Assembly (NCBI GenBank): GCA_937925685.1
Contig: CALAMI010000006.1
Location: 1-64,000, forward strand
Direction of reading: 5' to 3'
DNA length: 64,000 nucleotides
Origin: Candidatus Binatia bacterium
Lineage (GTDB): Bacteria > Desulfobacterota > Binatia > HRBIN30
The first letter of the stretch is position 1. Every line of letters begins with the position of its first letter. Positions 1 to 43,430 of this stretch are shown piece by piece. The position numbers were made by a program, and so were the translations under genes. The notes beneath the pieces are model-generated. The model searched no databases. It was given only the letters and a program-made list of their open reading frames with translations, and was not told where the DNA came from.

Positions 1-3000
1 AACGGCTACGGCCAGAGTTCCCCGCTCCCAGGCGTCTTCCGTAGCGTGAGTGGCTGTTTGTCGCACACCTGCGGCCTTCTGGAGGACGGGCGGGTGCAAT
101 GCTGGGGAGATAATGGGTTCGGCCAGAGTTCCCCGCCCGCTGGCCTCTTCCGTAGCGTCAGTGCCGGTTGGCACCACACCTGTGGCCTTCGCCAGGACGG
201 GCAGGTGCAATGCTGGGGATGGAACCGCTACGGCCAGAGTTCCCCGCCGCCACTGGAGGGTGGCTGTCCGGAGCCTCCCACCATCACCCCGCTACCCACG
301 GCGTGCCCCACCTCAAGCCCCACACCGACAGCCACGCCGCAACCCCCGCTGAGCCCGACGCCCACCTTCACCCCGGAGACGGTGCTGACGCCGAGTGCCA
401 CCTTTACCGAAACGTGGTCGCCGACGCCGCAGGCTTCGCTCACCCCGAGCCAGACGCCAACGGTCAGCCCGGCACAGCCGAGCCCCACCATAACCCATAC
501 GCCACTGACTCCAACGAGCCCCCTGACACCTACAGCCACAGGGACTGCAACTCGTAGCCCAAGTGCCACACCGACGCCGTCGCCGACGGCCAGTGCCACC
601 GAAACACCTTCGGCGGTAGCGACCACGGCCGCACCGTCTGCCACCCCTTCGCCCACCATCTCGCCGAGCGCATCGGCGACATGGACGCGTACGCCCACAG
701 CCACGGCGACGACGACTCGTACGCCGAGCCCGTCGGCCACATGGACTAGCACGGCGACTTCGACCGCTACCCGCACGGCCACACTGACGCCCACGCGCAC
801 CTCCTCGCCGACGCGCACGCCCACGGAGACTCCGCGGTTGCTGGCGGCTCCGACATTGGAGGCACCTGCGAATGGGACGATCAACGCGGCCAGGGAGGTG
901 AGGTTCCAGTGGCAGGCGGTAAGCGGTGCGCAGAATTATTGGTTGACCGTGGCTACGGACCCTGGGAAGTTGCCTAGCGATCCTGCAGCAACGAGGTGTG
1001 AAGAATGCGTGATCAGTTGTACGGTGACTTCGACGAGCCACACTGCGGGTCAGAGCAGTGAGTGCACCAGCGGGCGGACAACGCAGTTAAGCTATGGCAC
1101 GACCTATCACTGGCAGGTGCAGGCGTACGTCAGTACCCCGTTGCGCAACGGGGAGTTTTCGCAGAAGTGGACGTTCTATACCGTTTTGGCCCCACCCCAG
1201 TTGCAGGGTCCGCGCAACGGGGCCACAGGCCAGTCGTTGACCCCGACGCTGAGCTGGAATCCAGTGCCCGAGGCGAACCGGTACTGGGTGTTGGTGGCCA
1301 CCTCGCCGGATGTGTTTCCCACCGACTTGCAGGCGACGACGTGTAGGGGCTGTCTTGCTGCCGGGTACACGGACAGTACCACGTACACATGGGGCGACCC
1401 TTTCCCCAAAGGCGTGAGCCAGGGCTCGACAAATCCGCCAGGGGCGTTAGCTCCGGCAACGACCTACTACTGGAAGGTTCAAGGATTCCCGAGCGGGAGC
1501 AAGAGGATGGGGGAGTACTCCCAAGTATGGAGTTTTACTACGACGCAACCGTCGCCGGCACCGCGGAGCCCGACTCCGACAGCGACTCCGACAGCGAGCC
1601 CGACGCCCCGGGGGAAACGGCCGCTGATTTTCATTCCGGGAATCATGGGGACGGAGATTGTGGACGGAAATAATAAGTTGTGGTTCAGCCTGAACAATTG
1701 TGACATTACCAAGCTGCGACCGGACGATTCGGGAGTGCCGCAGGTTGGCCGTCCCGGGAGTCTTCTATGGAGTGTTGCGTCCTATTATGACGTTTACGGT
1801 GACTTTTCTAATTATCTGAACAGCAATGCCACCAACAACCAGCTCCACTTATTTCCATACGATTGGCGGTTGAACTTGCAGACGGTGGCTGCGCAGCTGG
1901 CGGGGCTGATCGCCGCGCTTGTTAACCACACCGGCCACCAGCAGGTAGATATTGTGGCGCACAGCATGGGTGGGTTGGTGGCGAAGTGGTTTTTGAGCCA
2001 GAGCGGCAACGAGAAGCGGGTGCGGCGGCTGATCACGATTGGCACGCCGCACCTTGGAACGCCGGATGCCGTGCGGGTGTTGCTGGAAGGGAAGCCGATG
2101 AGCTTTGGGCTGCTCGAGAGGGAGCCAGTGCGCGCATACGCAGCGAGGAACATGCCTAGCGCCTACCAACTGGCACCGGGAAAGCAGTACTTGGGGTTGC
2201 AGGGATCGTATGTAGATATTTACCAGGATATTTACCAGATTGACACGTGTGAGCGGCTCGGCAACTCCGGGAAATCAGGCAGTTTACGGGAAGTGCGGGA
2301 CCTTTGGTGGAAGCACGAGGCTTGCACATACTGTCCGTCAGGATGGTGGGATACGTGTGCGGATCGGTGGGAGACGCTGAACCCGAAGGCGCTCGACTGG
2401 CTAGATGCCAGGCAAGCGCTAGACACGTGGAGCCCGCCTTCAGGGGTTACGGCTTATGCTTTGTACGGATATGGCGAGTCCACCATCACGAAGCTGGTTG
2501 TAAGCCAAAGTGGCGGGACCGGCTACGTTTGTGGAAAGGACTGGGGAGATGGGGATGGAACGGTGGTGTTGAAGAGCGCCGAGGGGGTCAATGGATGGCA
2601 GGGGCTTTTTGGCTTCAAGAAGGCTGAACACTTGGCTTTGGTGAGGAATCAGGCAGTACGGGAGTGTACGATTGCATTGTTGGCCGATACGCCGGATACG
2701 ACGAAGTGCCAGGGGGGCAGGGCGGCGGAGATGCGGCAGGAGGGGCAGGTGCCGATGCGCTTGGATGTGGCGCTTTACGGTGAGGGGGTGCGGCTGCGGG
2801 TAGTAGATGGCGCTGGGCGGGTGACCGGGTACTTGCCTGGCGGTGAGGGGGAGGGGGAGGTGACAATGGAGATCGAGGGGAGTCGGTTCGATCGTTTTAT
2901 CTTGTTCCAGAGTGCGCTGGTGGAGTTGCAGCCGTTGCGCATAGAGGCGGAGAGCGAGCGAGCTGGGGAGTTAATGCTACGGTTGCGGGTGTTGGAGGAG

Positions 3001-4029
3001 TACGAGGTGGTGCAGGAGGCGGTGTACCGGTTTGGTGTTGAGGCAGGGGGCAAGGGGGTGTTGGAGATTGAGCAGGAGGCGCTGGGTCGGCGGATGAAGA
3101 GCGCGCAGGGGCGCGGGGTTGTGGGGCGGCAGCAGCCTTACGGGCTGAGCTTGGCGCCGTTGCAGGTGGATCGGGACGGAGACGGGACCATGGAGGTGGA
3201 GGTGGATGGGTTAGAGGTGCCGGTGGCTAACGGGGGGGAGGATCAGGTGGTGGGTTCTGGGGATGTGGTGCTGTTGGATGGTTCGGCAAGCCGTGACTCT
3301 TTAGGGCGAGCGTTGGAGTACGAGTGGGTGCAAACGGCAGGACCGGAGGTGGAGTTAGAGGGAGCGAGGACGGCGGTGGCGCGATTTGTGGCACCGCGGG
3401 TGGAAGAAGAGACGGTGCTGAGTTTTTCGTTGGTGGTGCGTGCTGGTGGGGTGGAAAGCCAAGCGGATGTGGTGGGTGTGGTGGTGCGGCCGTGTGGGCA
3501 GGAGCGTTGCAACGGGGTGGACGACGACTGCGACGGGTTAGTGGATGAGGATGACCCGGAGGAAGGCGGGGTCTGTAGGTTGGCAGGAGCAGGCAAGTGC
3601 GAGTTTGGCACGCTGCAGTGTCGGGGCGGCCGCTTGCAGTGTGTAGCGGGGTTTGCAGAGTGCGAGCGCACCGGCTGCAGCAGCGATGCCGATTGCGACG
3701 ACGGCGTGTTTTGCAATGGGCTTGAGCGCTGCGTGGACCGACTGCTTTGCAGTCCGGGACCGGTGCCATGCCCCGGGGCATGCGAGCAGTGCGACGAGCA
3801 ACAGCAGCGCTGCCTGCCGGTGGCCAACTGCCAAGCACAAAGCACAGTTTGCGCTGGGGACTGCAACAATGACAGGGATGTGACCATCGATGAATTGCTG
3901 CGCATGGTCAACGTGGCCTTGGAGCTACAGTCGCTTGCGGCATGTACCCCAGGCGACACCAACCACGACGGCACCATCACCGTGGACGAAATCATCGCTG
4001 CCGTGAACCGGGCGCTAAGTGGCTGCTAG
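1..4029 (+). CDS. Mosaic secreted lipase-like protein, 5' end cut by window
   Basis: The frame is open from base 1, so the gene begins outside the window; the GTG at 46 is only an internal codon. Visible modules, in order, are RCC1-type repeats of 37 residues (a 111-base period at 10, 121 and 232), a Thr/Pro-rich linker (about 280-835), two Fn3/lectin-like repeats with WxV and YxW patterns (about 840-1560), a second short Thr/Pro linker, then an LCAT/PDAT-like alpha/beta hydrolase. The hydrolase has PGIMGTE near 1635, nucleophile motif AHSMGG (Ser codon 1963-1965), a GDGTV motif near 2550 expected to hold the acid, and an EH motif near 2625 for the histidine. A PKD-like domain (about 3220-3490), a MopE-type CNGVDDDCDG motif, a Cys-rich stretch and two dockerin/EF-hand-like DxNxDG repeats close the protein. 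Probably a secreted or surface lipid/ester hydrolase; the substrate is unknown. Confidence 0.85.
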   Translation, partial: NGYGQSSPLPGVFRSVSGCLSHTCGLLEDGRVQCWGDNGFGQSSPPAGLFRSVSAGWHHTCGLRQDGQVQCWGWNRYGQSSPPPLEGGCPEPPTITPLPTACPTSSPTPTATPQPPLSPTPTFTPETVLTPSATFTETWSPTPQASLTPSQTPTVSPAQPSPTITHTPLTPTSPLTPTATGTATRSPSATPTPSPTASATETPSAVATTAAPSATPSPTISPSASATWTRTPTATATTTRTPSPSATWTSTATSTATRTATLTPTRTSSPTRTPTETPRLLAAPTLEAPANGTINAAREVRFQWQAVSGAQNYWLTVATDPGKLPSDPAATRCEECVISCTVTSTSHTAGQSSECTSGRTTQLSYGTTYHWQVQAYVSTPLRNGEFSQKWTFYTVLAPPQLQGPRNGATGQSLTPTLSWNPVPEANRYWVLVATSPDVFPTDLQATTCRGCLAAGYTDSTTYTWGDPFPKGVSQGSTNPPGALAPATTYYWKVQGFPSGSKRMGEYSQVWSFTTTQPSPAPRSPTPTATPTASPTPRGKRPLIFIPGIMGTEIVDGNNKLWFSLNNCDITKLRPDDSGVPQVGRPGSLLWSVASYYDVYGDFSNYLNSNATNNQLHLFPYDWRLNLQTVAAQLAGLIAALVNHTGHQQVDIVAHSMGGLVAKWFLSQSGNEKRVRRLITIGTPHLGTPDAVRVLLEGKPMSFGLLEREPVRAYAARNMPSAYQLAPGKQYLGLQGSYVDIYQDIYQIDTCERLGNSGKSGSLREVRDLWWKHEACTYCPSGWWDTCADRWETLNPKALDWLDARQALDTWSPPSGVTAYALYGYGESTITKLVVSQSGGTGYVCGKDWGDGDGTVVLKSAEGVNGWQGLFGFKKAEHLALVRNQAVRECTIALLADTPDTTKCQGGRAAEMRQEGQVPMRLDVALYGEGVRLRVVDGAGRVTGYLPGGEGEGEVTMEIEGSRFDRFILFQSALVELQPLRIEAESERAGELMLRLRVLEEYEVVQEAVYRFGVEAGGKGVLEIEQEALGRRMKSAQGRGVVGRQQPYGLSLAPLQVDRDGDGTMEVEVDGLEVPVANGGEDQVVGSGDVVLLDGSASRDSLGRALEYEWVQTAGPEVELEGARTAVARFVAPRVEEETVLSFSLVVRAGGVESQADVVGVVVRPCGQERCNGVDDDCDGLVDEDDPEEGGVCRLAGAGKCEFGTLQCRGGRLQCVAGFAECERTGCSSDADCDDGVFCNGLERCVDRLLCSPGPVPCPGACEQCDEQQQRCLPVANCQAQSTVCAGDCNNDRDVTIDELLRMVNVALELQSLAACTPGDTNHDGTITVDEIIAAVNRALSGC

Positions 4030-4285: not shown

Positions 4286-6907
4286 TCACGGCCGCAACAG
4301 TTTCCTCGCCGCTACATCGCCCACGAACGCGAACATGGCCAGAGGCAGGAGGATCCACTCCAGGGTTTTTTCCTTGGTCTCGCTCCCGCGAGCACGGGTT
4401 GTTACGATCTCTTCCGGTAAGGGATCGAGGCGCCCTCCGGTCTCGCGAGTGAGCGTCTCCAGCAACGCTCGGTTCGGTTCCCGGACCTCTTCGCTCCGCT
4501 CGGCATTTTCCCGAGGGAAGTACAGAGCAAAGCGTCGTTCCTCCAAGTCACGGCCTGGAGGCCGCCAAAGCACAGTAAGTTCCCCGCGAGAGCCTGCGGC
4601 CCCGGTTGCGATCGCGGTGAGCGTTCCTTCTTGGGTTCGGGAAAAGCGTAACTCTTGTCCTTGCTCGCCCACGATCAACCGCCCCACGGCCTCGTCAGGG
4701 GCGGCAGCGTCGAAGCTCTCGAGCCACACCCTCCAGCTACCACCCTCCATCGGTTCCACACCAACAGCCAGGTCGCGAGGCGAGACTTCTCGCATGAGCC
4801 AGCGGAGCAACTGAGCCCACAACTTTGTGCCCTGCGGCCAGGCAAGCCAGGGCTCGGCACCTTCGTTCCAACCCGCCGTAAAGGCAGCAACCCGGCCCGC
4901 ACCGTAATTCCACGCCGCCAAGAGAGGGTCGGCACGCTCTCCCTGCACCGCTCGCAGCCACAACTCCGCATCGGGCTTCAAACGCGTGTAAGCGTAGCCC
5001 ACCAGTGGCGGGGCACTGTCCCAGACAATGCCCTGGAGAACTTGACTCCGTTGCCCAGGCCGCACGGTAACGAGGTTCTCTCCGCGGGGCTTTTGGGTGA
5101 CGAGCCGGTTCGTGTCCTGCAACAACAACTGCGGCAACTCGCTAGCGTCGCGTACGTGATAAAACTTGCCCCCGGTGCGCGCGGAAATCGACTGCAAAAA
5201 CTCGAGGTTGACCGTGTCGTCACCAATGCGGATGGTGGTCACGCTCACCCCTGCCTCTTCCAAGGCGCGCAGTAGAGGCTCGTGCTCGGAGGCAGAGCGA
5301 TTGGTGTCGCCATCGGTCAGTAAGATGATGTGACCCAGGCGGGCGCGGTGCCGTACTAGTTCGGCGCTCGCTCGCTTGAGTGCATCATAAAAATCCGTGC
5401 CGCCGCCTGGCTGCAATCGCCCTACGTTGTATTCCAGTAACCCGCGGTTTTCAGCAAGAGGAGCTAAAGGGGCGACTTCGTACATCTGGGAGTCGAAGGC
5501 GATCACCCCGACACGGTCTGTATCTCGTAGCTGGGCGACCAAGGAAAGCGCCGCCCGCCGCGCATAAGATAGCTTCGATTCTTCCTCGCTGCGGCGGAGA
5601 CGATCGTGAATGTGATACCCCATGCTGTTCGAGCGATCGATGAGCAAAACCAGGGACAACGGTTCGCGTTCCGGGCGCGGCGGCCGCCGCGGCTCGAGTG
5701 TGACAGGCAGTAAACTGGCCAAGTCGGTGGACCTGAGCTGCCCAGCCCCAAAGGTGGTTTCCCCGCCAACGACGAAAAGCCCACCGCCCCGCTCGACATA
5801 GCGGCGGAGTGCAGACCAAACCGTTGCGGGGACCTTGCCCGTGGGCTGCTCCCAAACGACCACATGATACGCTTCCCAATCCCACGCGCGGTCGCGCAGA
5901 GAATCGGGCACGACGCGGCGTACTTCGAAGTCTTGCGCCCGGGCTACTGTCAAGAGTGGGGAATGGGGATGCTGGCTCACCACCAGCACGCGCGGAGGAG
6001 CGGTCAAAGACAGGTTCACGCTCTTGCGCGCGGACGGGGCAAAATATCCGCCGCCGGGGGGCTCGACCTCCAACCGCACCCGGTACGATCCCGGCTCCGT
6101 TCCTCTCCACTGCAACATGATGGGGATGGTTCCCGTGCGCAGCTGGATCGTTCGCATTTCCTGCAACGTATCGTTCACCCACAACCGTAAGGTAGCGAGT
6201 TGCTCGCCACCGCGATGCTGGAGCAGTGCTCGCACTGGCACCATGGTGTTCGCCGGAGCTACCTTCGGTACCACCAGTTGTGCGACCTCCGTCCCCCCGT
6301 CGTGCCCACGCGGGGGAATCGCTGCGTAGACAGCCACCTTCATGCCGCGCAGCACCGGAATCAAATGGCGGGCATTGCCGCGGGTCTCGTTGCCGTCAGT
6401 GAGCAGCAATACCTTGCGCTCACCACTGTCGGGCAAAATGCCGCGTGCTGCCTCGAGAGCAGCAACCAGATCGGTTGCTTCGGGCTCTGGCGCTGCACCC
6501 ACCGGGCCCGCCAGCGGACCACTCTCGGGCCAACGGGCGATTCGCACCTGACCCGCGAAGACAACGATTCCGAGATGGTCTTTGGGCCCACGGCGCCGAT
6601 CCAGCTCGTAAAGAAAGCGATCCTGCCACGCTCGGCCCATTTCGCTGATGCTCGCTGAGCGATCCACTAAGGCAACGAGGGTCGAGGGCTGGTCTGGCAA
6701 TGGCACACGCAAATGTACTCCTGCAAGCCCAGCCACCGCAGATATCCAGACAACACAACGCAAGCTGACGACCAACGGCGACCAGCCAGCCCGAAATTTT
6801 CCCCAGTACACGAACCAGGCAAGTCCGACCAAAGCCACTAGTCCCCAGGGGTTCGTGACCCCAAGGGTGACCTCGGTGACCCTGGACCACACGTAGTACC
6901 AACTCAT
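4286..6907 (-). CDS. Dual VWA-domain membrane protein of the MoxR operon
   Basis: The 873-residue protein has N-terminal membrane segments (VALVGLAWFVYW and a following helix), a first VWA domain with MIDAS-type DRSAS, a region resembling a class I glutamine amidotransferase-like fold around GGGLFVVGGE, and a second VWA domain with DRSNS. A C-terminal hydrophobic segment (WILLPLAMFAFVGDV) suggests anchoring, with the bulk outside the cytoplasm. I start it at the ATG at 6907 because its ATG overlaps the upstream gene's TGA as ATGA; the longer frame to 6994 runs into that gene. It is the last gene of a five-gene operon. In this family VWA proteins are thought to act with the MoxR ATPase in complex assembly or metal/cofactor insertion; the client here is unknown. 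Confidence 0.85.
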   Translation of the reverse strand: MSWYYVWSRVTEVTLGVTNPWGLVALVGLAWFVYWGKFRAGWSPLVVSLRCVVWISAVAGLAGVHLRVPLPDQPSTLVALVDRSASISEMGRAWQDRFLYELDRRRGPKDHLGIVVFAGQVRIARWPESGPLAGPVGAAPEPEATDLVAALEAARGILPDSGERKVLLLTDGNETRGNARHLIPVLRGMKVAVYAAIPPRGHDGGTEVAQLVVPKVAPANTMVPVRALLQHRGGEQLATLRLWVNDTLQEMRTIQLRTGTIPIMLQWRGTEPGSYRVRLEVEPPGGGYFAPSARKSVNLSLTAPPRVLVVSQHPHSPLLTVARAQDFEVRRVVPDSLRDRAWDWEAYHVVVWEQPTGKVPATVWSALRRYVERGGGLFVVGGETTFGAGQLRSTDLASLLPVTLEPRRPPRPEREPLSLVLLIDRSNSMGYHIHDRLRRSEEESKLSYARRAALSLVAQLRDTDRVGVIAFDSQMYEVAPLAPLAENRGLLEYNVGRLQPGGGTDFYDALKRASAELVRHRARLGHIILLTDGDTNRSASEHEPLLRALEEAGVSVTTIRIGDDTVNLEFLQSISARTGGKFYHVRDASELPQLLLQDTNRLVTQKPRGENLVTVRPGQRSQVLQGIVWDSAPPLVGYAYTRLKPDAELWLRAVQGERADPLLAAWNYGAGRVAAFTAGWNEGAEPWLAWPQGTKLWAQLLRWLMREVSPRDLAVGVEPMEGGSWRVWLESFDAAAPDEAVGRLIVGEQGQELRFSRTQEGTLTAIATGAAGSRGELTVLWRPPGRDLEERRFALYFPRENAERSEEVREPNRALLETLTRETGGRLDPLPEEIVTTRARGSETKEKTLEWILLPLAMFAFVGDVAARKLLRP

Positions 6908-8757
6908 GGCCTTTGCCCTGGAGCAACCTGGGCTGCAAGCCAGGCTTCGAACATCAACAAAAGCATGGCAGCAATCAGCGCCGCCTGGCCCCATGGGACT
7001 CTCTGCGCACCCTGCGTGGACGATACGCTCGATCGCCGATCCCCCGTCGGGGGCCTCGGGGCAATCGCGCTTTCACGGGGATCGAGTGCCACGGCATGAA
7101 GCGACACTTGACCTTTCGGGCCACGGAGTTCGTAACGGCCCCGCCAGTGCGGGACAAAGCTCTGGGTTCCCAAAGGTAACGCGCGCTCTTCTCCGCTGGG
7201 AAGAAGCACCACTGCAGGGCTACCCACGGTCAACGGGTGAGCTTGCCCAACGGGCCACACCGCGGCTAACGGCTGCGCCGGGCGGAGCCAGGCAAAGCTC
7301 TGCAACAAAAACACCGCCAACGGAAAGCCTTGCGAAGTCAGCAAAGGTTCTCGTGCTGCATCGAAAGCTAACCATACCTGGCGGGGTGGACCTTCACTGA
7401 CCCAAGCCACACTCACCAGCTCATCCGCGGCTCGCCCCCATATGAACGGAGATGAATTGTCCGGCACCTCGATGGCGCGAACTTGATTGAAGGGCAAAGG
7501 AAATGCGGGGGTCCAACCAGAAAAAATTGGGTGGTGGGCATCCCATGCTACTACCGCGACGTCGCGCACGACACGCTCGGGCCACTGCCTGGAACCTCCG
7601 GGAGGATCGACCACCAATGCGGGGTGGGGGAAATCCTCCGGCGGACGTGCACGATAGAAAAGGTACACATCGGAGTGGGTCTGCCCCCCCGTGCAACTCC
7701 TGCTGGTCACACGAAGGTTTCCCGCCGCCTCGGCCAATGCCTGTAGCTCGCGCCATGGGCTGCCTTGTGCGGAAATCAAGCACACCTGCAGGGGCTCAGG
7801 TTCCGAAACCCAGGCACTCGCCTCGTTGTCGACTGCCAGTAAATCGTCGGTAAGGATCTTCGCGGCAATCGCCCCTCCACCTGGCACTTGCTGCACGACC
7901 CCCGTTGTTTCTCCCGGGCCGAGGGTAAACCCCCTTTGCAACAAGACTCGACCCTGCCATTCAATCACCACAAGACCGTGTTTCACCTTGCTCCCGTAAT
8001 TCCGTACGCGCAGCGAGACTTCGGCTGCAAATCCTGTCTGCCATGGCCGCTGAATTACGGCGAAGTCAGCAATGGCGACGTTGTCATCGCCGCCACCCAC
8101 GGGGAACAGGAGAGCCTCGTCCACCAAGCCACGGGGGAGGTCCGGATCCGCGAAGTCGCTGAACACAGCCACTGTTGCGCTTGCCTCGGATCCCCCAAGC
8201 AGCGAACGGGCGAGCGCCAGCCCATGAGCCAAACTCCCGCCGCTGTCGAAAGGCGCCAGAGTTCGCACGGCGTGCCGCAACCGTTCCAAGTCGTGGGAAA
8301 AGGGAACCAGCACCTCAGCTTGCTCCCCCACGACCACCAGTGCTGCTTGGTCGCCTGGCCCGAGCCCGGATAAATAGCGCTCCACCGCTTCTTTCGCCGC
8401 ATCGAGGCGAGTGCCAGTTCGGTAGCTTGCTTGCATACTCGCGGTGCGATCCACCACCAGCACGTGCCGCTCCGGCAGCAGTGGAGCGGGCCGCTCGAGA
8501 TAGGGTCCGGCCAGCGTCGCCACCAGCATGAGCAAGGCCAGCAGCTGCAGGATCAACAGCGGGTCCCAGCGGCGCCGGCGCTTTGGGGGCAAGTCCGGCC
8601 ATAAAAAGACCGCAGGCACAATCCGTGCGACCGAGCGCTCTGGTCGGAGGAAGAGATAAAGGAGTACGAGCGCCAAGCTCGCGAACATCCAAGCAACGGG
8701 TTCGGTGAAGCCCACGGTTTGCCTCGAGAAAATAGTATCAACCCACAATTCCGGCAC
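6904..8757 (-). CDS. BatA-like VWA membrane protein
   Basis: 617 residues starting at a GTG. The N-terminus looks like the aerotolerance regulator (BatA) N-terminal domain: two membrane helices (WMFASLALVLLYLFL and LLILQLLALLMLVATLAGP) enclosing the basic PPKRRRRWDPL segment, followed by a VWA domain whose metal site reads DRTAS, with Thr in place of the first MIDAS Ser. A beta-rich region follows, then a C-terminal helix (AALIAAMLLLMFEAWLA) close to the end. It overlaps the upstream DUF58 gene by 20 bases and the downstream dual-VWA gene by ATGA, so it is translationally coupled on both sides. Likely a membrane partner of the MoxR ATPase; no specific substrate can be read from the sequence. 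Confidence 0.85.
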   Translation of the reverse strand: MPELWVDTIFSRQTVGFTEPVAWMFASLALVLLYLFLRPERSVARIVPAVFLWPDLPPKRRRRWDPLLILQLLALLMLVATLAGPYLERPAPLLPERHVLVVDRTASMQASYRTGTRLDAAKEAVERYLSGLGPGDQAALVVVGEQAEVLVPFSHDLERLRHAVRTLAPFDSGGSLAHGLALARSLLGGSEASATVAVFSDFADPDLPRGLVDEALLFPVGGGDDNVAIADFAVIQRPWQTGFAAEVSLRVRNYGSKVKHGLVVIEWQGRVLLQRGFTLGPGETTGVVQQVPGGGAIAAKILTDDLLAVDNEASAWVSEPEPLQVCLISAQGSPWRELQALAEAAGNLRVTSRSCTGGQTHSDVYLFYRARPPEDFPHPALVVDPPGGSRQWPERVVRDVAVVAWDAHHPIFSGWTPAFPLPFNQVRAIEVPDNSSPFIWGRAADELVSVAWVSEGPPRQVWLAFDAAREPLLTSQGFPLAVFLLQSFAWLRPAQPLAAVWPVGQAHPLTVGSPAVVLLPSGEERALPLGTQSFVPHWRGRYELRGPKGQVSLHAVALDPRESAIAPRPPTGDRRSSVSSTQGAQRVPWGQAALIAAMLLLMFEAWLAAQVAPGQRP

Positions 8758-9691
8758 GCGCTAGCGTTCCGAGCACGCACGCTTCCAAGCCCTCCTCGGG
8801 GTCGACGTGCACATAAAAAAACCCATGGCGGTGACAGCTTTCACGTAACCTTGCCTGGTGCTGCTCCAGTGCCTTGCGATACGCCGCGCGAGCCGCAGGG
8901 CCCCAAGCAAGGGGGCGCATTTCGTTGCTCTCGGCATCGCGCACGGTCAAGGCCGCACTAGGCCAGTCCCACTCGAAATGGCTGCGCGGCAGAAGATGCA
9001 GCGCCACCACGACCAGACGCCGAGCGGCCAACCACGCAAGCGCACGCACCGCTTCTTCTCCTGGGTAATAAAAGTCGGAAATCACGATGCCGACTCCAGG
9101 CAAAAGTGCCTGCGACACGAACCTTTCCAAAGCCGCCCGAAGGTCGACCCGCCCCGAGGCGCGGGCCGTCTCGACGAAGCGGACCACCTCCAACACTTGC
9201 TTGCGGTGGCGCCACACTGCTGAGCGGCGACAGCGAGAATCCGCTCCCTCGAGCAATCCGAACATGACCGGTTCGTGACGGCGCAAACACAGGTACGCTA
9301 AGGCAACACCGAGTTTCCGCGCGAACGACAAGGGGCTTTCTCCCTGCTCCGCCACCGCCATCGAGGCCGAGGTATCCAACAAGAGGTAGGTGGCACTTTC
9401 GCGCTCGGCGCGAAATACGCGGAGAAGGAGTTCGTCGGTGCGCGCGTAAGCACTCCAGTCGAGATACCGTAAATCGTCGCCCCAAACATACCGGCGAAAG
9501 CCGTGTACCTCGAACCCGTGGGCCGCCTGGGCGCTGCGGGAACGTTGGGAACCTTCGCGCAACGCCGTTGGCCGTGGCAGGATCAACTGCACGCGGTCGA
9601 GCTTTTGTAAAAGCTCGGGGCGGAGGAATTCCGTGCGCGCTCGAGCAGCGTTGTCGTTGGGCCGATTCGCTCTTCGCCAAGGCCACGGCAT
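8738..9691 (-). CDS. DUF58 family protein
   Basis: 317 residues with the DUF58 hallmark GFEVHGFRRYVWGDDLRYLDW just before a VWA-like core carrying DTSAS. This family almost always sits beside MoxR ATPases and is thought to take part in the same chaperone-like assembly machine. The ATG at 9691 lies 7 bases after the moxR stop; the longer frame to 9739 would overlap moxR by 41 bases and adds only a low-quality basic leader, so 9691 is preferred. No membrane segment is evident. It is gene three of the operon, between the ATPase and the BatA-like protein, the usual order for these loci. Confidence 0.88.
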   Translation of the reverse strand: MPWPWRRANRPNDNAARARTEFLRPELLQKLDRVQLILPRPTALREGSQRSRSAQAAHGFEVHGFRRYVWGDDLRYLDWSAYARTDELLLRVFRAERESATYLLLDTSASMAVAEQGESPLSFARKLGVALAYLCLRRHEPVMFGLLEGADSRCRRSAVWRHRKQVLEVVRFVETARASGRVDLRAALERFVSQALLPGVGIVISDFYYPGEEAVRALAWLAARRLVVVALHLLPRSHFEWDWPSAALTVRDAESNEMRPLAWGPAARAAYRKALEQHQARLRESCHRHGFFYVHVDPEEGLEACVLGTLARAGIVG

Positions 9692-9698
9692 AGGTTGC

Positions 9699-10730
9699 CT
9701 ACTCGCGGAGGTGTCGCGCGCGCGCCAAAATACCTTCAATCAAGGAAGATGGTTCAATGCCATCGGCGAGGGCCGCGAAATTCACCACCAATCGATGGCT
9801 CAGTGCCGGTACGGCAACCGCGTCCACGTCCGCGTACGTGACGTGCACCCGGCCGTCTAGCAACGCCCGCACTTTGGCCCCCAGCAATAATGCTTGCCCC
9901 CCGCGAGGGCTCGCGCCGTAACTGACGTAGCGATTGATCGGCTCGTCTGCGGCCAGTGGGGCGTCGCCTCGGGGAAGGAACTTGGAAGTGGTGGGCATGG
10001 TGGCGCGCACCAACGCCGCCGCATACGACTCGATTTGCGGTGCCACCATGACTTGCCGCACGAGTGCGCGCATGCGCTCGACTTCCTCCGCGGCAACGGC
10101 AGCATCGAACAGTGGAGACAAGTGCAGCTCCCTCTCCCCGGTGGTCCGCGCCAGGATCCGCCGCAGCTCATCGTGCGAAGGGTAACGCAACACCACTTTG
10201 AACAAAAACCGATCGAGCTGCGCTTCCGGCAGGGGGTACGTTCCCTCCATCTCGATGGGATTTAACGTGGCCAGCACAAAAAACGGCCGCGGCAAAGGAT
10301 AGGAGTGGCCCGCCACCGTCACTTGCAGTTCGGCCATGGCTTCGAGCAAAGCCGACTGCGTCTTCGGTGTGGCGCGATTGATTTCGTCCGCGAGCAGCAC
10401 ATGGGTAAACAGGGGTCCAGGCTGAAAGCGGAACGATCGGTGTCCGTTCTCCTCTACCAGCACCCGCGTCCCGGTAATGTCGGCGGGCATTAGATCGATC
10501 GTGAACTGCACCCGGGCAAAGCTCAGGTTCAATAGCTCGCCCAAACTCCGCACGATCAGCGTCTTGCCTGTTCCCGGCAGGCCTTCGATCAGCACGTGTC
10601 CGCCTGCAAAAAAGGCAATCAGAATGAGTTCGAGATGCTCCTCGTGCCCTACGATCACACGCTGCAGCTCCGAGCGCAGGCGGTCGAAGGTGTCGACAAA
10701 AAACTGCACGTTGCGTTGTGGCGTGGTCAT
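9699..10730 (-). CDS. moxR: MoxR-type AAA+ ATPase
   Basis: 343 residues. Walker A is GLPGTGKT (residues 50-57), Walker B VLLADEIN (111-118), and sensor 1 lies in LATLNP, followed by the GTYPLPEAQLDRFLF signature of the MoxR family. The helix-rich lid domain follows. MoxR ATPases are cytosolic rings that use ATP to help assemble or activate protein complexes together with VWA-domain partners. Its ATG overlaps the TGA of the upstream membrane gene (ATGA at 10727-10730), which implies coupled translation. The complete Walker and sensor motifs indicate an active enzyme. The target complex cannot be inferred. Confidence 0.95.
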   Translation of the reverse strand: MTTPQRNVQFFVDTFDRLRSELQRVIVGHEEHLELILIAFFAGGHVLIEGLPGTGKTLIVRSLGELLNLSFARVQFTIDLMPADITGTRVLVEENGHRSFRFQPGPLFTHVLLADEINRATPKTQSALLEAMAELQVTVAGHSYPLPRPFFVLATLNPIEMEGTYPLPEAQLDRFLFKVVLRYPSHDELRRILARTTGERELHLSPLFDAAVAAEEVERMRALVRQVMVAPQIESYAAALVRATMPTTSKFLPRGDAPLAADEPINRYVSYGASPRGGQALLLGAKVRALLDGRVHVTYADVDAVAVPALSHRLVVNFAALADGIEPSSLIEGILARARHLRE

Positions 10731-42763: not shown

Positions 42764-43090
42764 GGCCCCTCTTGGTATCGGTCAGCGCCGCAACACGCAA
42801 CCCGCTCCCCCGCGGGCGGACACATAGGTGTGGCCCTGCGCTGCGCCCTCACATCCCCCCGCCCCCTGCAGCGCCAGTGTGCACCAATGGCATCGTGGGT
42901 GGACATGTAGGTCCACCCCAGCCACGCGGGTGCCGCCGGCATCACCCGCGGCACCATGTACGACGCAGGCCATCTGGTGGCGGGCATGCGCACGCCCTTA
43001 CGGCCCTCCGGCGGGTGCGGCCGTCGAGGTCGTAATGCGATCAGAGAAGCACGACGAGCCGCCGTGCGGCGGAACGCGGCGGCACCGATG
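42764..43090. repeat. Hairpin-rich intergenic island upstream of CoxD-like ATPase
   Basis: 327 bases without a gene. Two perfect 8-bp stems are seen: GGGTGGAC/GTCCACCC (42897-42904, 42911-42918) and CGCGGGTG/CACCCGCG (42925-42932, 42943-42950), with more imperfect GC-rich pairs up to 43075. It separates tRNA-His from the divergent-looking gene block. It could be REP-like elements or remnants; it shows the same style as 48991-49250. Confidence 0.35.
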
Positions 43091-43164
43091 GGTGAGTGAA
43101 GGGGCTCGAACCCTCAACCCCCGGAGCCACAGTCCGGTGCTCTGCCAGTTGAGCTACACTCACC
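43091..43164 (-). tRNA. tRNA-His (anticodon GTG)
   Basis: The minus strand folds as a tRNA with an extra G at position -1 paired to C73, the histidine identity element. The acceptor stem is GGTGAGTG against CACTCACC, the anticodon loop GAC-TGTGGCTC carries GTG, and the T loop is GTTCGAGCC. CCA is not encoded. Third of three tRNAs transcribed together after rdgB. Confidence 0.95.
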
Positions 43165-43241
43165 ACGCACGGGCGCCATGCCGGCAAGCCCTCAGGAATA
43201 TGCAAAGGCGCTCGCCCTCGCAAGGGCGATCGTCTCACGAG

Positions 43242-43315
<74 letters not shown>

Positions 43316-43356
43316 TTACACAGACTTAACCGAGAACTTCCCATCGTGGAAATCAA

Positions 43357-43430
43357 TCGGGGTGAGAGGATTTGAACCTCCGACTCCCTGCGCCCAAGGC
43401 AGGTGCGCTACCAGGCTGCGCTACACCCCG
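43357..43430 (-). tRNA. tRNA-Pro (anticodon TGG)
   Basis: The minus strand folds with acceptor stem CGGGGTG/CACCCCG, anticodon loop CTTGGGC carrying TGG, and T loop GTTCAAATCC. The discriminator is A; CCA is not encoded. It lies 174 bases downstream of rdgB on the same strand and precedes tRNA-Arg and tRNA-His, an arrangement also seen in enterobacteria. Confidence 0.95.

Follow-up and report, generated by a model that had tools for sequence, protein, structure and literature searches.

The window analysed here is the first 64 kb (64,000 nucleotides) of contig C6 (CALAMI010000006.1) of a Candidatus Binatia bacterium, the assembly of which (GCA_937925685.1) comprises 3.7 Mb in 51 contigs. At its left edge lies a gene for a mosaic protein that combines a lipase-type hydrolase with a C-terminal module of predicted dockerin fold. 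The window is placed in the HRBin30 lineage because contigs of Bacterium HR30 run parallel to those of this genome, with ~67-78% DNA identity over kilobases, and we infer the order label of the genome set used below. In the literature, HRBin30 is an order within Binatota, and its genomes come from thermal springs (PMC8262859).

A truncated mosaic gene with a lipase domain

The features of the gene, with amino acid (aa) positions counted from the contig edge, are as follows.

1-4029, plus strand: 5'-truncated mosaic gene, a single frame open at its 5' end, with 1342 visible codons and a stop at 4027-4029
1-243, plus strand: terminal part of an RCC1 repeat region (aa 1-81); PF13540 (RCC1_2), E 1.4e-20 in two stretches, above cut-off
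265-837, plus strand: linker of 191 aa with 32% Thr, 22% Pro and 14% Ser
847-1548, plus strand: two homologous repeats of ~115 aa (aa 283-395 and 396-516), 36% identity, z 16
1549-1614, plus strand: short second Pro/Thr linker, assigned from sequence
1618-2670, plus strand: alpha/beta hydrolase of LCAT / group XV phospholipase A2 type; PF02450, E 2.5e-15, above cut-off; PDB 4x90, E 7.2e-8
1963-1965, plus strand: putative catalytic Ser655, aligned with group XV phospholipase A2
2554-2556, plus strand: putative catalytic Asp852 (or Asp850), in the motif GDGDGTV
2629-2631, plus strand: putative catalytic His877, aligned with a His in the paralog only
2671-3222, plus strand: post-lipase region, aligning locally with the lipase paralog
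3235-3486, plus strand: PKD domain (aa 1079-1162), K319L-like PKD PF22352, E 2.4e-9, above cut-off
3484-3846, plus strand: MopE-like motif CNGVDDDCDG (3508-3537) and cysteine-rich stretch; PF11617 below cut-off
3850-4026, plus strand: C-terminal dockerin with two F-hands (loops 3859-3894 and 3955-3990), assigned by genome matches, the alignment A2 described below, an AlphaFold2 model and PDB fold matches

Base 1 of the window coincides with base 1 of the contig, so that the gene is cut at the contig edge and its N-terminus is absent; the domain order as listed is therefore incomplete. Individual RCC1 repeats are placed at 61-126 and 151-237, and further repeats presumably lie upstream, beyond the contig edge. 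The 5' end of the gene was not recovered: the other RCC1 matches of the genome are on contigs C15 and C17, not at contig ends.

A preliminary description of this DNA had read the gene as an unusually ordered mosaic of RCC1 repeats, a Thr/Pro linker, two Fn3/lectin-like repeats, an LCAT-type lipase, a PKD-like domain, a MopE motif and a dockerin-like end. The RCC1 repeats, the linker and the PKD domain were all recovered, and the lipase survived the profile search that had been named as its possible refutation. The ~115-aa repeats are likewise a true pair (41 of 114 aligned columns identical; z against 300 shuffles), but as to their Fn3/lectin-like label, Pfam gave no Fn3 match in them and only hints below cut-off, to Pur_ac_phosph_N (PF16656, 7.5e-5) and PBP (PF01161, 0.0012). 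The CNGVDDDCDG motif is present, but the MopE family itself missed its cut-off of 27 bits, with 19.6 bits, or 23.0 bits when the segment was scanned alone. A Pfam scan of 2488-3225 found no family at E <= 0.01. The modules of the mosaic are thus in place, but the gene is truncated and the mosaic is less singular than described, as the terminal module occurs in 48 open reading frames (ORFs) of the genome and a paralog of 2189 aa also combines lipase, PKD domain and dockerin.

The best solved relatives of the hydrolase are group XV phospholipase A2 (LPLA2; PDB 4x90) and LCAT; the former has aligned counterparts of its PYDWR, HSMG and GDGDGTV motifs. The Ser-Asp-His triad is apparently complete, as had been proposed: the Ser and Asp motifs align with the solved enzyme and the His with the paralog. 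The triad Asp is most likely Asp852, which precedes Gly-Thr-Val and is the sole Asp kept in the paralog; an ungapped BLAST alignment pairs the single Asp of the paralog with Asp850 instead. This paralog, encoded on contig C4 of the same genome, can be aligned with the window protein over a stretch that extends from the core of the lipase to within the PKD domain, and its His falls in register. Its N-terminus is of another kind (beta-helix, TSP3 repeat); it also contains a cohesin-like domain and shares the terminal module. Lipase, PKD domain and terminal module therefore recur together in both proteins, and an RCC1 front end joined to a lipase is found only in the window protein. In the order, no close relative of the lipase was found, with weak alpha/beta-hydrolase matches in 8 of the 14 other genomes; the terminal module was absent from these weakly matching ORFs within loci of ~3 kb, some of which cut the ORF. 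A scan of genome contigs with the lipase found no relative.

The terminal module and the proteins that carry it

The two DxNxDG repeats at the end of the window protein miss the Dockerin_1 cut-off (15.6 against 22.9 bits) and pass that of EF-hand_1 when scanned alone. A tblastn search with the terminal 66 aa found 49 places in the same genome, the window copy included, which is far above chance; only 2 of these 49 modules exceed the Dockerin_1 cut-off. Of the 49 modules, 41 went into the alignment A2, so that recovery of modules in this genome with A2 is circular and the 14 other genomes of the order are the real test. Four cysteines are invariant or almost invariant in A2, and in the window protein they lie at aa 1284, 1288, 1315 and 1342. 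AlphaFold2, run on A2 with the window module as the predicted protein, gave a predicted local distance difference test (pLDDT) score of 93.1 and helices at 17-27 and 49-61. With this model, the first 30 ranks of Foldseek against PDB are all dockerins (best E 0.089, probability 1.00), and so are the first 30 rows of VIA-align, mostly near full length (best Z 7.3, root-mean-square deviation 3.3 over 62 residues); the first non-dockerin row of the latter is GCaMP2, with Z 2.2. Taken absolutely, these E and Z values are weak, the module being so small, but the fold ranking decides for a dockerin over EF-hand proteins, and the window module is assigned by its predicted fold rather than by the Dockerin_1 profile. 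The dockerin-like end of the preliminary description is thus supported by structure prediction. A calmodulin-type EF-hand pair was considered and rejected: calcium sensors come top by sequence alone, and the predicted fold ranks dockerins first. Textbook dockerins differ from this module in having Asp at the last loop position, and the four cysteines are a feature of the module.

Across 90 modules, identity between the paired F-hands averages 48% and falls to 6-9% when they are shifted by one to three residues, and in the window module 11 of 23 positions are identical between them. In cellulosomal dockerins, such twofold symmetry has been linked to dual binding (PMC4728124). For tests on the cysteines, modules were pooled and partial or duplicate ones removed, reducing 191 alignment rows to 91 and 90. 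In the set of 91 rows, local alignments clip the module ends. Among the 90 distinct modules, the first and the last cysteine are both kept in 82 and both lost in 4, and only the first is lost in 4 and only the last in none; the third cysteine was required, and a cysteine a few residues off its expected place was accepted. For this joint loss, Fisher p is 2.7e-5, with rows that are not independent, being paralogs. Because the terminal cysteines are lost jointly, we infer a disulfide that would join the two ends of the module. At this site, other dockerins have a non-covalent clasp (PMC4728124). A search for the module on plasmids, made with an artificial consensus as query, gave no match.

The 49 modules lie in 48 ORFs. 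In thirty copies, the module ends no more than 18 residues from the C-terminus; 16 are near the N-terminus, mostly a short way behind a hydrophobic segment, and the other 3 are internal. Pfam searches of single ORFs, which cover 45 of the 48, found a mixed set of families: propellers (NHL, FG-GAP, BNR and lactonase-type), RCC1 with LCAT in the window protein, a second LCAT, peptidases (trypsin, subtilase and matrixin), MauG, and also an MtrC/F-like multihaem cytochrome, MbnP, DUF3604, Laminin_G_3 and bacterial Ig domains. No Pfam family reached threshold in 17 of the 45 ORFs, and 4 had only the EF-hand matches of the module itself.

Three further observations concern these proteins. The module protein at C2:238129-240765 (L096:2130-4763) carries the MtrC/MtrF-like multihaem cytochrome domains and is possibly a docked extracellular electron carrier. 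At C17:9431-10215 (L092:6432-7213), an RCC1 ORF overlaps an ORF with a Pro/Thr linker and a dockerin in a different frame, which suggests a frameshifted RCC1-linker-dockerin gene and thus a second pairing of RCC1 and dockerin beside that of the window protein. Outside the 49 modules, dockerins over the PF00404 cut-off are present in six ORFs (C10:14747, C8:176145, C8:179443, C5:171849, C5:13243 and C2:221825), which represent a second dockerin class in the genome.

The composition of this set bears on the reading of the system as a cellulosome, in which the lipase would be an accessory of a plant-fibre degrading complex. The cohesin and dockerin folds do match cellulosomal ones, but glycoside hydrolases, polysaccharide lyases and carbohydrate-binding modules were missing both from the 45 ORFs scanned singly and from the 25 of 53 families listed for the pooled Pfam scan of all 48. 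Laminin_G_3 (lectin/glucanase superfamily) is the single match that points toward carbohydrate. Fibre-degrading clients not being seen in these scans, the cellulosome reading was rejected as highly improbable.

Cohesins of the genome and their spread in the order

The preliminary description had suggested a search for cohesins elsewhere in the genome and a binding role for the dockerin-like end outside cellulosomes. Cohesins are indeed encoded: a search with PF00963 found four, two of them over cut-off. The protein at C24:19493-21901 (802 aa) combines three cohesins (PF00963, E 1.3e-26) with a Thr/Pro linker and, behind a hydrophobic stretch, the lipobox-like sequence LTGC, and at E <= 1e-4 Pfam finds Cohesin alone in it and no carbohydrate-binding module. 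The next gene encodes one cohesin behind a hydrophobic segment, and the gene after that begins with a divergent module. A profile of the genome's own cohesins detected cohesin-like domains within four module proteins, to which PF00963 below cut-off adds a fifth; the first version of this profile was seeded with the domain of the C4 paralog, and a version without that seed recovers the domain anyway. AlphaFold2, run on 20 cohesins after removal of one row with unknown residues (L140:9984-10268) and one row of genome G056, modelled the second C24 cohesin with pLDDT 98.2. In the PDB, this model matches CaCohA2 best (Foldseek E 2.4e-11, with Z 18.5 over 130 residues), and all 13 PDB sequences found with the cohesin sequence profile at E <= 0.1 come from cohesin entries. 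A candidate partner of the predicted dockerin is thus encoded in the same genome, and at the level of sequence the suggested cohesin binding outside a cellulosome is supported.

In some proteins, dockerin and cohesin stand side by side (L137:6620-8245, L137:10663-12444, L143:8501-10216 and L121:2-3667), alternating repeatedly in L121, and such proteins could chain head to tail. Tandem proteins of this kind would suit an adhesive role, in which modules and cohesins would link proteins from one cell to another, or hold them in a matrix or polymer, instead of binding enzymes onto the own cell, and the cohesin and dockerin proteins of syntrophic sulfate reducers have been proposed as adhesins (PMC10553843). 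We consider adhesion improbable, given that enzymes are among the clients (lipase, trypsin, subtilase, MauG) and that six genomes have a multi-cohesin protein with a lipobox or a GCGGD-type site, fit for the own surface.

In the order, A2 matches were found in 15 of 15 genomes examined, with 13 to at least 150 per genome; up to 150 candidates were scored in each, so that high counts are lower bounds. The module is rare elsewhere in the phylum. In a sample of 297 genomes, from which the two members of the order were set apart, it occurs in 3 of 295, once each, and in the rest of the class in 0 of 10, these absences resting on up to 21 candidates scored per genome. Cohesins co-occur with the module throughout the order: PF00963 matches are present in 14 of the 15 genomes, against 26 of the 295 sample genomes outside the order, and matches to the own-cohesin profile in all 15. 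In G237, one of the three outside genomes with the module, cohesins lie in the same frame as the module.

The subset of cohesin loci that were read includes a multi-cohesin locus of the lipoprotein type for 6 of the 15 genomes of the order. A lipobox is present in G000, G302, G304, G307 and G309, and G056 has a similar GCGGD site missed by the lipobox pattern. A dockerin-bearing gene, with a module of the divergent kind, lies within the locus in five of the six. In addition, multi-cohesin frames without a lipobox occur in G299 and G301, and in G305 two PF00963 matches lie in one frame.

Probable docking of the lipase and comparison with known systems

The domain identities, the predicted dockerin and cohesin folds, the wide sharing of the module and the order-wide co-occurrence with cohesins lead to our preferred reading, to which we assign a probability of roughly 0.7: the window lipase docks via a cohesin and is one of many clients of a surface system of cohesins and dockerins, large and not cellulosomal, in the HRBin30 lineage. 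The lipase, most like group XV phospholipase A2 and LCAT, would be exported, and its last 59 residues would form a dockerin that is probably clasped by disulfides. Once secreted, the module would bind calcium on folding and dock into a cohesin. The most likely receptor would be the predicted surface lipoprotein at C24:19493-21901 with its three cohesins, together with the adjoining single-cohesin protein. Such docking would keep the lipase, presumably active as an enzyme, and some 47 other, apparently secreted dockerin proteins (propellers, peptidases, cytochromes, FG-GAP proteins) on the cell surface or within a common assembly outside the cell.

A number of observations weigh against this docking model. 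The cohesins of the genome are few relative to its 49 modules. The congener G303 (95% complete, 58 modules) gave two weak matches to the own-cohesin profile and one to PF00963, with no multi-cohesin protein among them; in family f97 (G297-G301; 104 to at least 150 modules) no lipobox multi-cohesin protein was found in the loci read, and in G297 the PF00963 search finds no cohesin. Across the phylum sample, PF00963 is absent from two of the three outside genomes with the module, and cohesins occur without the module in 25 of 295 genomes. Because a lipase search in two congeners gave no match, the lipase looks like a variable passenger. As to the fold, VIA-align Z values below 8 are rated middling by the note of the tool, no dockerin reaches a Foldseek E below 0.001, EF-hand proteins as well as calcium sensors score above dockerins in the PDB sequence search, and the calcium loop ends in an EF-hand-like Glu in most modules. 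Signal peptides were judged by a crude hydrophobicity scan.

Several of these points are shared by the main rival explanation, namely a dockerin-fold module without a cohesin partner that acts as a calcium- and disulfide-stabilised cap, or as a sorting signal for an export or anchoring machine, with the cohesins serving other dockerins. The surplus of modules over cohesins, the lack of a visible scaffoldin in G303 and the Glu at the last loop position would all suit it, and the six ORFs with dockerins over the PF00404 cut-off could be the true partners of the cohesins. Such a partnerless module is nevertheless unlikely. Placement at either protein end is unusual for a sorting signal, and both repeats are equally kept, as in dockerins with a dual binding mode. 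Cohesin and module are directly joined in some proteins, and five of the six multi-cohesin loci contain a module gene, of the divergent kind.

A broader proposal extends the docking model to the whole order, which would use the dockerin as a general-purpose adaptor of the secretome. Each genome would have from 13 to at least 150 dockerins clasped by disulfides, most of which the standard Dockerin profile misses, and these would plug lipases, peptidases, cytochromes and propellers into cohesin scaffoldins, some of them lipoproteins, as a non-covalent surface 'socket' system independent of cellulose. This extension is tentative, and we put it at slightly below even odds.

Elsewhere in the window, frames of 902, 617, 333 and 343 aa follow downstream of the mosaic gene on the minus strand (4286-10730), which we take to resemble a Bat/MoxR-type operon. 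Three clustered tRNA genes (His, Arg, Pro) lie on the minus strand at 43090-43430.

If binding is true, cohesin-dockerin assembly would serve generally to organise secretomes, and dockerins with four cysteines from this thermal-spring lineage could be sturdy parts for protein assembly. The analysis also provides candidate roles for ~48 proteins of an uncultured bacterium. No paper linking Binatota with dockerins or cohesins was found among the open-access papers searched, and the accessible text of the HRBin30 paper mentions neither (PMC8262859). In a 2024 survey of sequenced bacteria, which excluded metagenome-based sequences, the number of dockerins was found to rise about linearly with that of plant-fibre hydrolases that bear a dockerin (R2 0.81); the survey also notes non-cellulosomal cohesin-dockerin systems in a few 'scaffoldin-containing' bacteria (PMC11557425). 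The order seems to break this linear rule: it has dockerins by the dozen, and in the one genome of which the clients were scanned, no such hydrolase was seen.

Several known systems invite comparison. Relative to group XV phospholipase A2 and LCAT, the window lipase is bacterial and embedded in a mosaic of at least 1342 aa. With the type I cohesin-dockerin pairs of cellulosomes, such as CaCohA2-CaDoc0917 of C. acetobutylicum, the system shares both folds (dockerin Z ~7 over ~60 residues, cohesin Z 18.5 over 130), the duplicated F-hands and a multi-cohesin scaffoldin on a linker; it differs in that no cellulases or carbohydrate-binding modules were seen, and in the four conserved cysteines, the Glu that ends the loop and the lipobox on the scaffoldin. 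In anaerobic methanotrophic (ANME) archaea and their sulfate-reducing partners, there are likewise many non-cellulosomal dockerins and scaffoldin-like proteins of uncertain role (PMC9012536, PMC10553843). These belong to other lineages, their clients are ABC binding proteins and adhesins, and a disulfide-clasped module is not described in the accessible text. The 'planctosome' of freshwater Planctomycetes is a proposed non-cellulosomal cohesin-dockerin complex at the outer membrane with hydrolytic clients (PMC6461901), and resembles in this the system proposed here. The planctosome set is centred on peptidases and has a lamin-tail anchor (PMC6461901), whereas the present system has a tandem-cohesin lipoprotein, tens to more than 100 dockerins in each genome, and a mixed set of clients with a lipase among them. 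Judged by these papers, what is new is the size of the repertoire and its order-wide spread outside cellulosomes, a four-cysteine module that mostly evades the standard profile, and a scaffoldin of lipoprotein type.

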